Positions 25,413 to 29,761 of a stretch of DNA of 32,888 bases are shown one piece after another. How positions within the stretch are numbered: the stretch's first letter is position 1; the number at the start of each line of letters is the position of its first letter. The position numbers and the translations under genes are program-made. The notes under the pieces were generated by a model that was given only the letters and a program-made list of their open reading frames with translations, was not told the origin of the DNA and searched no databases. Source of the DNA: Nitrospirota bacterium (GTDB taxonomy: Bacteria > JACPQY01); NCBI GenBank assembly GCA_016190245.1, contig JACPQY010000042.1, forward strand, positions 1 to 32,888, read 5' to 3'.

Positions 25413-26920
25413 CTGGGAGGTCCTCCGGGCACAAGGCCCTTGCAGGCCATTTCGAGGGCCCGTCGGACACCAAGGGCCTTGCTCTCCGTTTCGTGGAACT
25501 CGCGATCCGGCTGCGAATCGGCCACGATGCCCGCCCCGGCCTGGATGTAGTAGCGTCCGGCGCGATGGAGAAGCGTGCGGATGGTGATGCACATGTCCAT
25601 GGCTCCCGAGAAGCTGAAGTAGCCGACGCTTCCAGCGTAGAAGCCTCGCCGCGTGGGCTCGAGCTCTTCGATAATTTCCATGGCCCTCACCTTCGGGGCG
25701 CCGCTCACGGTGCCGGCGGGAAAGCACGCGGAAAAGGCATCGTAGCCGTCACGTCCGTCCGCCAGCTTGCCCTGCACGCTCGTGACGAGGTGCATGACGG
25801 TGGAATAGCGCTCGACGCTCATGAGGTCCGACACGGCCACGCTGCCTTGGGCGGCCACGCGTCCCACATCGTTGCGCCCGAGGTCCACCAGCATGATGTG
25901 TTCCGCCTTCTCCTTTGGGTCCGACCTGAGCTCTTCCTCCAGCCGCGCGTCCTCCACGACGCTCCTCCCGCGGGGTCGTGTGCCGGCGATCGGCCGAGCG
26001 ACCACCGACTCCCCTTCGACCCGCACGAGGATCTCGGGCGAAGAGCCGATCAGCCTGAGGTCGCCGAAGTTGAGATAGAACATGTAGGGCGAGGGATTGG
26101 TCATTCGGAGTGCACGGTAGACGGTGTACGGATCCACGGGCGAACGGAACTCGAACCGGCGCGAGAGGACGACCTGGATGGCGTCGCCCTGCACGATGTA
26201 CTCCTTGGCCCGCTTCACGATCCGCTCGAACTCGGGCCGAGCCATGTTCACGCGCGGCTCGGCCAGCCGGGCCGTCCGTGCCCGCCCCGGACCGCGGCCA
26301 ACCTCGAGACGCCGGCGCAGGCGCTGAAGAGTTCGGAGGGCGGCGGCATAGAGGGCGGACGGCCGCGCCCCATCGCGGACGGCCACGTTCACGAGCAGCG
26401 TGGCGCGCTGGCGAAACCGGTCGAACACGACCACCGGCCCGCCCACGAAGAAATAGGCATCGGGCACGCGAAGGTCGTCCCGCGTTCGATCCGGGAGCCG
26501 CTCGAGGTGGCGGACCACGTCGTACGAGAAGAAACCGACGGCTCCTCCAGTGAAACGGGGCAAACCGATGTGGGGGGCCTGCCGGAGCCCCTGCATCTGC
26601 TTTCTCAGCGCATCCAAAGGCGATCCCTCGATCCTCCGCTGCGTCCGACCGTCCGAAATCTCCGTTGAGCCGCCCGCGCTCCTGAGAAGGAGCGACGGCT
26701 CAAGCCCGATGATGCTGTAGCGTCCCCACTGTTCCTCTCCCTCGACGCTCTCGAGCAGGTAGCCCGGCGCATCGCCCACCAGCCGCTGATAGGCTGCGAC
26801 GGGGGTCTCCAGGTCAGCCACGATCTCCTGCCAGACCGGCACGACCGTGAACTCCGCCGCGAGCCGCGCGAACTCCTTCTCCCCCGGCTGGATGAAGGGG
26901 GTCAGGTCTTGACTTGACAC
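25409..26920 (-). CDS. trpE: Anthranilate synthase component I
   Basis: Converts chorismate and ammonia to anthranilate. The 503-residue protein has the N-terminal regulatory part (VVPVWQEIVADLETPVAAYQRL, then YLLESVEGEEQWGRYSIIG with the LLES tryptophan-binding motif) and the chorismate-binding domain: PIAGTRPRG, EKAEHIMLVDLGRNDVGRV, FPAGTVSGAPKVRAMEII and YIQAGAGIVADS. Feedback inhibition by tryptophan is therefore likely. Start GTG 26920 has AAGGAG 8 nt upstream. The start codon and first eight codons (VSSQDLTP) come from a palindromic element (26897-26984); normal homology begins at PGEKEF. It overlaps ttuA by 19 nt and trpG by 4 nt. Confidence 0.95.
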
Positions 26921-26984
26921 ACCACCGCTCCTTGTCCCTCCACCGACCTCGCCCCCACCTGCGTCAAGGCAAGACCTGACCCCC
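26897..26984. mobile_element. 88-bp palindromic element (REP/MITE-like) at the ttuA-trpE junction
   Basis: Inverted terminal arms at 26897-26918 and 26963-26984 match over 22 bp with one mismatch; the outer 15 bp (GGGGGTCAGGTCTTG and its complement) are perfect. The motif GTCAAGACCTGACCCC is a familiar short repeat associated with REP-type transposase loci in environmental genomes (recollection, not searched). The element lies wholly within coding sequence. It encodes the last 28 residues and stop of the ttuA product on one frame and the start of trpE on another. Confidence 0.75.
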
Positions 26985-27960
26985 GGGCGAGGGTTGCCGC
27001 ACGGAGGCGGCAGAAGGCACACACTTCGACCGGCGATGGGGATCCACATTCCCGGCACGGTTTCATCGCGGGCGGCGCAGGCGCCGGCAACCGGTCCTTG
27101 GCGCTCAGAAAGTTCGCGAGAAAAGCCCGCTTGGTCCCCGGGGACTCGTGCTCCAGGCGATTGATCACGTCCTTGTGCTCAAGGGATGTGGCACCCAAGG
27201 CAAAGGGACATTCCTCGCGGATGTACGGAACACCCTCCAAGACCGCGTAGAGCGCCGTTTCCTTCTCGGAAAAGAAACAGAACGGCTTCACCTTGCGGGC
27301 AAACCCTTCCGCCGCGGGCAAGACGGGCGTCTGGCGCGCGAGGTAGTCCATATCCCACCGAAGCGTGTTGGAGAAAAGCGTGGCCGCCTCGTCATCGAGA
27401 TTGTGCCCCGTGGCGAGGCCGTCATAGCCCCGCTCGACCGCCACCTTGTTCATGTAATGCCGTTTCGTTGTCCCGCATGGCGAGCAGGCAGGCCGATGCA
27501 CGGCCCGTTGGATCTCGGGGATGCCGAACCCCATCGTTTCCTGGAGATCCACAACGATGAGCTCGCGGCCGGAGCGGTCGGCATACGCGCGGGCAAACTC
27601 GAGGGAGCGCTGGGAGTAAGCCAAGCCGTCCGATCCCTGAATCCTCAGATGAATGTACAAGCCGTCCGCCACGTAGCCCAGCTGCAGGAGGGCGTGCCAC
27701 AGGCCCAAGCTGTCCTTGCCGCCGGAGACGGCCACAAGGATGCGGTCGGTCTTTCCGAACATGTGGAAACGTTCGATCGTGCGCTGCGTCTGCTTCTCGA
27801 ACCAAGGGGGGTAGCACGCGCGGCACAGGGCCAGCCGGTGCTGAGGCATGTGGATCACGGCCTTTCCACCGCAGGGCTTGCACCGGCGGTATGACTTGGG
27901 CGCGCCTTCCTCGGCCCGCCCACGCCCGCCGGTACAGGGCCGTCCTGGCCCGCACTTCAC
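26902..27960 (-). CDS. ttuA: TtuA/Ncs6-type tRNA 2-thiolation enzyme
   Basis: ATP-dependent enzyme that replaces the C2 oxygen of a tRNA uridine by sulfur taken from a ubiquitin-like carrier. The 352-residue protein has an N-terminal zinc finger (Cys27, Cys30, Cys46, Cys49), the PP-loop SGGKDS (79-84), and GHNLDDEAATLFSN. Three cysteines are placed like the TtuA [4Fe-4S] ligands: Cys159 and Cys162 (CSPCG) and Cys251 (EECPFA). A C-terminal zinc finger follows (CRECG ... CAFC). TtuA thiolates m5U54; relatives Ncs6/CTU1 act on U34. Start GTG 27960 forms a GTGA overlap with the ttuB::radC gene. The C-terminal tail is encoded by the palindromic element. Confidence 0.87.
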   Translation of the reverse strand: MKCGPGRPCTGGRGRAEEGAPKSYRRCKPCGGKAVIHMPQHRLALCRACYPPWFEKQTQRTIERFHMFGKTDRILVAVSGGKDSLGLWHALLQLGYVADGLYIHLRIQGSDGLAYSQRSLEFARAYADRSGRELIVVDLQETMGFGIPEIQRAVHRPACSPCGTTKRHYMNKVAVERGYDGLATGHNLDDEAATLFSNTLRWDMDYLARQTPVLPAAEGFARKVKPFCFFSEKETALYAVLEGVPYIREECPFALGATSLEHKDVINRLEHESPGTKRAFLANFLSAKDRLPAPAPPAMKPCRECGSPSPVEVCAFCRLRAATLARGSGLALTQVGARSVEGQGAVVCQVKT

Positions 27961-28925
27961 GGCTGGGCCACCTTGCGGCGCCGGTCGTCGATCCGCCCCG
28001 GCGCCTCTCGCCGCATCGCATCGATCCGGCCGGCGTCCGCGAAGCTGTAGTGATCCGCCCCGCCGACAATCACGTGGTCCAGGACGCAAAGGTTCATGAT
28101 CTCCCCGCCCCAGACCATCTCGCGGGTGAATTGCTCATCCTCCGCGCTCGGCGTGGGATCACCTGAGGGATGGTTGTGCACGAGGATGAGCGCCGCCGCC
28201 TGGCGCCGGAGACCGCATTCGAACACTTCGCGCGAGAATGCGGCGCTGCGATTGACCGTCCCGCGGCTCACGCGCTCCCGTGCCAGGAGCTTGTTCCGCG
28301 TATTGAGCAAGAGAACGTCCAGCACCTCTTTCCTGAGGTCCTTGAGCAGCGGCCCGGCCAGGTGGGCCACGTCCGCCGAACTTCGGATCACGACGGCGGG
28401 CGAGGCCGGAAGGGCGTTCACGCGCCGCCCGAGTTCGAGGGCGGCGAGGATCTGGGCAACCTTGGCCGTCCCGACGCCCTTGATGCGGCGCAGCTTGTCC
28501 GGGTCCGAACGAACCATCTTTCCCAGGCCGCCGGCCAAGCGGAGGAGCCGCCGCGCGAGATCAATGGCGCTCGTGCCGCGGGCACCGGTCCTGAGGAGAA
28601 TCGCGATCAACTCGGGATCCGTGAGGGATTCGGCTCCGGCTTGGATCAATTTCTCACGGGGCCGCTCGGCCTCGGGCCACTCGCGGATCGGCACGTGATA
28701 GGCCGCCGCGTCAGAAGGAGCGGAGGGCGGGCCGTCGCTCCCGCCGGAAATCGCCTTGATGATCTCCACCTCGTCCTGCGGCCCCACCATCTCGTCTTCG
28801 GTCACCACCTCACCGTTCTTCGCGACGAGCACCACCTCCGGTAAAAGTTCCAAACGCTTCAGCAGGTCCCGTACGCGCATCTTCCCCTCGACATCCTGGA
28901 TTGCCCCACCCACCTTCACTCGCAT
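27957..28925 (-). CDS. Fusion of a TtuB-like ubiquitin-fold sulfur carrier with RadC (JAMM domain)
   Basis: A 322-residue protein in one uninterrupted frame. Residues 1-62 form a ThiS/MoaD/TtuB-type beta-grasp domain (VRDLLKRLELLPEVVLVAKNGEVVTEDE ... VEIIKAISGG) that ends in Gly61-Gly62; TtuB proteins end with the same AISGG. A short Pro/Ser/Ala linker follows. Residues 78-322 are full-length RadC: IREWPEAERPREKLIQAGAESLTD, the helix-hairpin-helix RRIKGVGTAKVAQILAALELG, and a complete JAMM metal site (Glu233; His250-x-His252-x7-Ser260-x2-Asp263). GGAGG precedes ATG 28925. The gene overlaps trmI by 10 nt and ttuA by 4 nt. The carrier presumably serves TtuA. The JAMM domain could expose the Gly-Gly end by cleavage or remove carrier from targets. 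That role is inference; RadC has no agreed function. Confidence 0.88.
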   Translation of the reverse strand: MRVKVGGAIQDVEGKMRVRDLLKRLELLPEVVLVAKNGEVVTEDEMVGPQDEVEIIKAISGGSDGPPSAPSDAAAYHVPIREWPEAERPREKLIQAGAESLTDPELIAILLRTGARGTSAIDLARRLLRLAGGLGKMVRSDPDKLRRIKGVGTAKVAQILAALELGRRVNALPASPAVVIRSSADVAHLAGPLLKDLRKEVLDVLLLNTRNKLLARERVSRGTVNRSAAFSREVFECGLRRQAAALILVHNHPSGDPTPSAEDEQFTREMVWGGEIMNLCVLDHVIVGGADHYSFADAGRIDAMRREAPGRIDDRRRKVAQP

Positions 28926-29761
28926 GTCGCATCCCCCTCCAATCCCTCCGCCTTCGGCTCCTCCGCGGTAGAGGAAGCCTCCTCGCATCGAACCAGCCTC
29001 TCGTTCGACTTCCGCCCGAACGTGAGAAACCCCGTGTGCCCCACCATCCGCTCGAACGGCCGCGTGCGGCCGCTGCGCGCCAGGATCGTGCGCGTCAACA
29101 CCTCGATCGTCTCCAAGAAGACGAACCCACCCTCCTCGAGCGCAATGGCCGCCCGCTCCACCTGGTTGTAGGTGGGCGAAAGACTCACCCACCGGCCGCC
29201 GCCCTTGAGACTCTCGTAGACGGGGCCGACCACCGTCCACGGCTCCGGGATGTCCACCACGGCAACGTCCACCTCCCGCTCGTCGTAGCGATCCGGCTCG
29301 TTCGCCGGCTTGAACTCGATTGTGTTCGTCATGCCCATCCAGCGCAGGTTGTCGCGCGCCTTCTCGAGGCGCTCCGCCACGCGGTCGTATGCGAACACTC
29401 TTCCCGCCTCCCCGACTGCATTAGCGAGAGCGAGGGTGAGCGCCCCCGTGCCCGACCCCACCTCGAGCACGCGGTAGCCCTCGCGAAGTCCGGTCTTCAG
29501 AACGATCATGGCCGCCTCTTTGGGGTAGATGATCTGGGTGCGGCGCTGGATCTTCATCATGACATCTTCGAGAGTCGGTTCGAGGAGCACCACGGGCTCG
29601 CCGGTGTGCGTGCGGATCACGTCGCCGTACGATCTTCCGATCACCTCGTCAATCGCGATGATCCCCTTGTGCGTGTGGAACTTCTCCCCCGGTCGGACGA
29701 TCTTGAGATACGTCCTTCGTCCGGGCAGAAGAAAGAGAACCGGTGAGTCGGCCTGGATCAT
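28916..29761 (-). CDS. trmI: tRNA (adenine-N1-)-methyltransferase, m1A58
   Basis: Methylates N1 of A58 in the T-loop using S-adenosylmethionine; the enzyme is a homotetramer. The 281-residue protein has the N-terminal beta-domain (TYLKIVRPGEKFHTHKGIIAIDEVIG, GRSYGDVIRTHTG), the linker QRRTQIIYPKEAAMI, the Rossmann motif VLEVGSGTGALTLALA, and motif IV VAVVDIPEPW, where TrmI/Trm61 proteins have a D-x-PxPW pattern. The C-terminal tail (EEPKAEGLEGDATCE) is variable. It is the first gene of the overlapping operon. In Thermus, m1A58 promotes 2-thiolation of m5U54, which gives a functional reason for sitting beside ttuB and ttuA. No clear ribosome site before ATG 29761. Confidence 0.93.
   Translation of the reverse strand: MIQADSPVLFLLPGRRTYLKIVRPGEKFHTHKGIIAIDEVIGRSYGDVIRTHTGEPVVLLEPTLEDVMMKIQRRTQIIYPKEAAMIVLKTGLREGYRVLEVGSGTGALTLALANAVGEAGRVFAYDRVAERLEKARDNLRWMGMTNTIEFKPANEPDRYDEREVDVAVVDIPEPWTVVGPVYESLKGGGRWVSLSPTYNQVERAAIALEEGGFVFLETIEVLTRTILARSGRTRPFERMVGHTGFLTFGRKSNERLVRCEEASSTAEEPKAEGLEGDATCE

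Follow-up and report, generated by a model that had tools for sequence, protein, structure and literature searches.

The sulfur carrier TtuB needs a free Gly-Gly for its adenylation and thiocarboxylation. In Thermus thermophilus (structures 5gha and 5ztb), TtuB is a free small protein, a beta-grasp carrier ending in AISGG, and it works with TtuA, which draws on TtuB sulfur in forming 2-thiouridine at tRNA position 54 (PMC3980101). When a JAMM is lost in that species, TtuB conjugates are disturbed and tRNA thiouridine falls by half (PMC3980101). Carriers with a buried Gly-Gly have also been described. In MoaD-MoaE, the carrier is joined to a sulfur-using enzyme and is released by a separate JAMM protein, DR0402 in Deinococcus (PMC8832034) or HvJAMM1, and such cutting was proposed generally for JAB domains acting on ThiS/MoaD fusions, with RadC not named (Iyer 2006; PMC1779556). 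In Pyrococcus furiosus, JAMM1 and SAMP2 (5LDA) are a JAMM protease and a ubiquitin-like (Ubl) carrier made as two separate proteins. There is precedent both for Ubl carriers in fused form and for JAMM cutters.

RadC (UPF0758/TIGR00608; 2qlc) combines a helix-hairpin-helix domain with a JAMM domain. It is widespread in bacteria and has a protease-like zinc site, without an agreed biochemical function; a 2003 paper gave that function as unknown (PMC300881). In the literature searched, drawn mostly from outside subscription journals, we found no tRNA-thiolation operon in which a carrier is joined to RadC, no single paper on both TtuB and RadC, nothing relevant linking RadC with deubiquitinases, and no report of proteolytic activity for any RadC.

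Here, we describe a bacterial gene in which a TtuB-like carrier is joined to RadC. The carrier resembles Thermus TtuB in its fold, its AISGG and its association with ttuA, but RadC follows the Gly-Gly. As in MoaD-MoaE the Gly-Gly is buried, whereas the partner is the JAMM protein itself, and as in JAMM1:SAMP2 a JAMM domain meets a Ubl carrier, but in one chain. Ordinary RadC shares the helix-hairpin-helix and JAMM domains and lacks the ubiquitin-fold domain. A natural fusion to a carrier that needs an exposed Gly-Gly offers a concrete, testable substrate for RadC, as MoaD-MoaE did for other JAMM proteins. If the reading developed below is true, a protease and its Ubl substrate would form a single polypeptide with a link to tRNA thiolation.

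The fusion gene and its neighbours

The window (the whole stretch of 32,888 nucleotides analysed here) belongs to genome G000, and its features are listed in Table 1. Our sample of the phylum consists of two genomes, G000 (85% complete) and G001 (97% complete), which represent two genera of one family. The preliminary description had the coordinates of the fusion gene right and left its strand unstated: the plus strand of this interval has stops, and the minus-strand translation from the ATG at 28925 gives 322 residues in one continuous frame, as had been claimed. The same open fusion occurs in G001 with 61% identity, an ATG at the matching place, which supports the start assigned in G000, and the same order of trmI, fusion and ttuA. 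Because an independent genome of another genus carries the full-length fusion between the same neighbours, the fusion is real and not a product of chance.

Table 1. Positions of the features discussed (window numbering; L numbers denote loci of other genomes)
Feature	Position	Strand	Basis
ttuB-radC fusion gene	27957..28925	(-)	322 codons + stop; Pfam, NCBIfam, full-length G001 homologue
TtuB-like ubiquitin-fold (beta-grasp) domain, residues 1-62	28740..28925	(-)	Pfam ThiS, model, fold match
Gly61-Gly62 codons	28740..28745	(-)	AISGG kept in G001; free TtuBs stop there
Variable linker, residues 63-76	28698..28739	(-)	Low identity, pN ~ pS, low pLDDT nearby
UPF0758_N helix-hairpin-helix domain of RadC, residues 80-157	28455..28688	(-)	Pfam PF20582 E 3.5e-27, fold match
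RadC JAMM domain, residues 180-299	28029..28388	(-)	Pfam PF04002 E 1.3e-36, invariant residues, 2qlc
trmI-like tRNA (m1A58) methyltransferase gene	28916..29761	(-)	Pfam GCD14 E 1.9e-32
ttuA, tRNA-5-methyluridine(54) 2-sulfurtransferase gene	26902..27960	(-)	TtuA_LIM_N E 3.8e-8, NF049949
RadCs with a different N-terminal extension	L091:3296-4228, L092:4044-4985, L093:4118-5050, L094:3822-4754, L095:3400-4323, L099:3407-4471		

Pfam ThiS matches residues 8-62 above its curated cut-off (E 5.8e-10), and AISGG occupies residues 58-62, so that the Gly-Gly stands where the preliminary description had placed it. By its profile matches the RadC that follows is complete, with the helix-hairpin-helix domain (PF20582, 94.7 bits against a cut-off of 27.1), the JAMM domain (PF04002, 125.6 bits against 22.1) and the NCBIfam model TIGR00608 (E 3.4e-61, 206.8 bits against 133.85) all above threshold.

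After the Gly-Gly come 260 residues in G000 and 261 in G001, and the translated product has no free C-terminal Gly-Gly. There is no in-frame stop, nor an early stop in the other two frames, that would free the Ubl domain. Release of TtuB by a programmed frameshift or an internal restart was considered and rejected, as there is no stop at the Gly-Gly in the other frames and no ATG in the linker. A free C-terminal Gly-Gly could only be attained through a cut, for which the expected site is directly after Gly62.

Between G000 and G001, the Ubl domain is 61% identical (pN 0.28, pS 0.79) and the JAMM domain 68% identical (pN 0.20, pS 0.72), whereas the linker is 38% identical (pN 0.56, pS 0.49) and has 14 residues in G000 against about 24 in G001, a difference of about 10. 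By these values the Ubl and JAMM domains are under purifying selection, with none visible on the linker.

The gene upstream, trmI, is on the same strand and overlaps the fusion start by 10 bases, and the GTG start of ttuA downstream overlaps the radC stop (GTGA). In ttuA, TtuA_LIM_N scores above its Pfam cut-off and NF049949, the Pyrococcus TtuA model, matches with E 5.5e-80, a score below its equivalog cut-off. These neighbours, absent from the preliminary description, give the name TtuB its best support, and the gene context supports sulfur transfer to tRNA.

No other TtuB-type Ubl was found in G000 or G001, which means that TtuA would need the fused carrier unless another Ubl substitutes. 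The remaining Ubls are a ThiS beside thiG in G001 and, in both genomes, a CysO/MoaD-type Ubl that ends in AIAGG and is fused to a NIL domain (L036:1492-2004 in G000:C16, start approximate; L037:1492-2004 in G001:C9). Like ttuB-radC, this Ubl-NIL protein has an internal Gly-Gly followed by a second domain, but its partner is not a protease, and its surroundings differ: it lies downstream of a threonine-synthase-like gene, with a sulfate adenylyltransferase gene next in G001. If it is a sulfur carrier, it may also require a cut after its Gly-Gly.

The zinc site and the predicted structure

The preliminary description listed Glu233, His250, His252, Ser260 and Asp263 as the JAMM site. The two histidines, the serine and the aspartate stand, each being invariant in 47 of 47 aligned RadCs, but the glutamate was misassigned. 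Glu233 is present in 41 of the 47 and lies on a predicted helix (231-240), while Glu200 is invariant (47/47) and opens a predicted strand (201-207), and the catalytic glutamate of AfJAMM is on strand beta-2 (PMC300881). From this invariance, the strand position and the AfJAMM precedent, we assign the JAMM glutamate of the fusion to Glu200, which leaves the Glu/His-x-His/Ser/Asp motif intact.

In a predicted model of the fusion (mean pLDDT 89.5, pTM 0.62) the domains are well folded, with pLDDT above 90 over most of the Ubl domain. Residues 60-71 have pLDDT under 50 and are modelled as disordered, so that the Gly-Gly tail lies within a disordered stretch and is not docked. The best fold match of the Ubl domain is Thermus TtuB (5ztb/5gha, Z 9.6 over 60-62 residues), with MoaD at Z 8.2. 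The UPF0758_N part matches the C-terminal helical domain of DisA, and the JAMM part matches RadC 2qlc (Z 21.6). A single fusion chain also matches both chains of 5LDA (JAMM chain Z 9.4, 13% identity), a comparison of a model with a complex that shows shared folds, not activity. The flexible linker makes it plausible that Gly62 could reach the zinc.

Proposed release of the carrier and its candidate cutters

What might become of a buried carrier? We consider it probable that the fusion is cut after Gly62, whichever enzyme makes the cut, since ttuA is retained, the Gly-Gly is conserved and no other TtuB-type carrier was found. The earlier reading of the gene as a sulfur-carrier precursor with a buried Gly-Gly has thus gained support, from its being the only TtuB-type gene found, from its place in a ttuA operon and from a Gly-Gly that is kept while the linker is not.

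We tentatively propose, at slightly less than an even chance, that the TtuB precursor is cut there by the fused RadC JAMM domain, which would be the most economical cutter since it is on the same chain and has an intact site. In this scheme, the gene product would be the precursor of the Ubl sulfur carrier TtuB, and a metalloprotease cut after Gly62, made by the RadC JAMM domain on its own chain or a neighbouring one, would leave a free C-terminal Gly-Gly. An E1-like enzyme (TtuC/MoeB type) would adenylate the freed carrier, a desulfurase or rhodanese would convert it to the thiocarboxylate, and TtuA, the product of the adjoining downstream gene, would take the thiocarboxylate sulfur to form 2-thiouridine at tRNA position 54. 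As a candidate E1, G001 encodes a rhodanese-ThiF protein; no ThiF-type E1 was found in G000 (85% complete). Several points count against this scheme: the missing E1 match in G000, the undocked Gly-Gly tail of the model, the separate canonical JAMMs described below, the lack of any reported RadC proteolysis in the papers found, and the helix-hairpin-helix domain that RadC retains although a peptidase serving only to process a carrier could do without it.

The wider claim, that RadC processes its own N-terminal TtuB and is thus a peptidase acting at Ubl Gly-Gly, with plain RadCs perhaps processing or deconjugating Ubl carriers elsewhere, is one we hold only as a possibility and with clear reservations. 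G001 itself has a second, plain RadC. The preliminary description had suggested a possible function for RadC in general, an extension that is weak given that a single phylum has yielded the fusion.

One alternative is that a separate canonical JAMM protein (Prok-JAB/Mec type) cuts after Gly62, with RadC as a passenger or a co-regulated partner that is released. G001 has such a protein (L048; 142 aa, Pfam E 7.6e-23), which could cut in trans, and the Ubl-NIL fusion, with its internal AIAGG in both genomes, may need a JAMM too. Free TtuBs point the same way. Beside ttuA in other genomes we found four TtuBs with a tail of 2, 7, 27 or 7 residues after the Gly-Gly (L041:634-1029, L194:1269-1490, L196:2391-2732 and L198:2384-2605, respectively), which are likely precursors that need trimming, and hence such precursors would not be unique to the fusion. 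A canonical JAMM is present in all four tailed-TtuB genomes (G015, G077, G219 and G348; E 8e-25 to 5e-30) versus 5 of 17 untailed ones, a difference with a Fisher p of 0.021 by genome and of 0.23 when collapsed to families. RadC is also present in all four of these sampled genomes. The window's genome yielded no canonical JAMM, although 15% of it is missing, and a G000 counterpart of the G001 JAMM neighbourhood, sought through the upstream gene, gave no match; the absence of another JAMM and of an E1 from G000 may be a gap in the genome. A separate cutter also leaves unexplained why the fused partner should be a JAMM protein, and we regard it as unlikely.

In G001:C20 (L045:5841-10526), a ThiF-like gene lies within about 4 kb of a RadC-like JAB gene, a pair that may resemble a PRTRC-type mobile element.

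Another option is that the fusion stays uncut and the Ubl domain does its work while attached, perhaps as an arm guiding RadC towards TtuA or TtuB conjugates, without sulfur chemistry at a free C-terminus. The disordered, unconserved linker would fit a tethered domain no less than a site of cutting, and both RadC domains are kept. Another carrier might feed TtuA, in view of sulfur-carrier Ubls that can be redundant in an archaeon (PMC11323500). Against this, AISGG is kept in both genera despite having no use in an uncut protein, TtuA is kept in the same operon, and neither genome yielded a second TtuB-type carrier. We think an uncut fusion unlikely too, slightly more so than a separate cutter.

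Finally, the preliminary description allowed that a sequencing or assembly error might hide a stop after Gly62, with ttuB and radC then separate genes; free TtuB does stop exactly there in other lineages and G000 is a draft assembly, but the frame is also open in the second genus (61% identity), where the linker has another length and sequence, which contradicts an error and makes it extremely improbable.

Distribution and origin

The preliminary description had called for a search for other fusions, which yielded one, that of G001 in the same phylum. RadC matches occurred in 248 of the 386 genomes sampled, and among the matches listed only the RadCs of G000 and G001 covered the whole Ubl part. 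No further fusion appeared among the matches listed in two more phylum searches (25 genomes) or for 2,314 plasmids and 42 phages with RadC, nor in 56 viral RadC loci read upstream. A contig search with the whole fusion protein returned no further case, and one with the Ubl domain returned eight free TtuB-like loci and zero fusions.

Two sets of longer RadCs were rejected as fusions. Those of G047, G088, G148, G162, G301 and G322 (Table 1) carry a different domain of about 75 residues, with the pattern IYPxxSKxGxxF, no Gly-Gly and no match to the Ubl query, and the long RadC frames of G015, G205 and G272 seem to be read-through from upstream.

Other lineages usually have a free ttuB immediately before ttuA, with a stop after its terminal GG (in some cases KG or RG). 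The distant lineage of G349 (L055) has trmI, ttuB and ttuA in that order without an intervening radC, and its genome gave no RadC match at the search threshold applied. On the simplest reading of these gene orders, radC would have entered in frame after ttuB, ahead of ttuA, in the ancestor of the G000/G001 family.

In two genera of an unrelated family, represented by G011 (L047:8065-10659) and G159 (C1:430153-432671), an unfused radC shares the strand of ttuA at a distance of about 1 kb, with a sugar-kinase-like (rfaE-type) gene separating the two in G011. This proximity may be chance.

The trmI gene adjoins ttuB/ttuA in several unrelated lineages (L055:2179-4687, L194, L196, L198, L206 and L208), which suggests that the genes for modifying tRNA positions 54 and 58 are commonly grouped.
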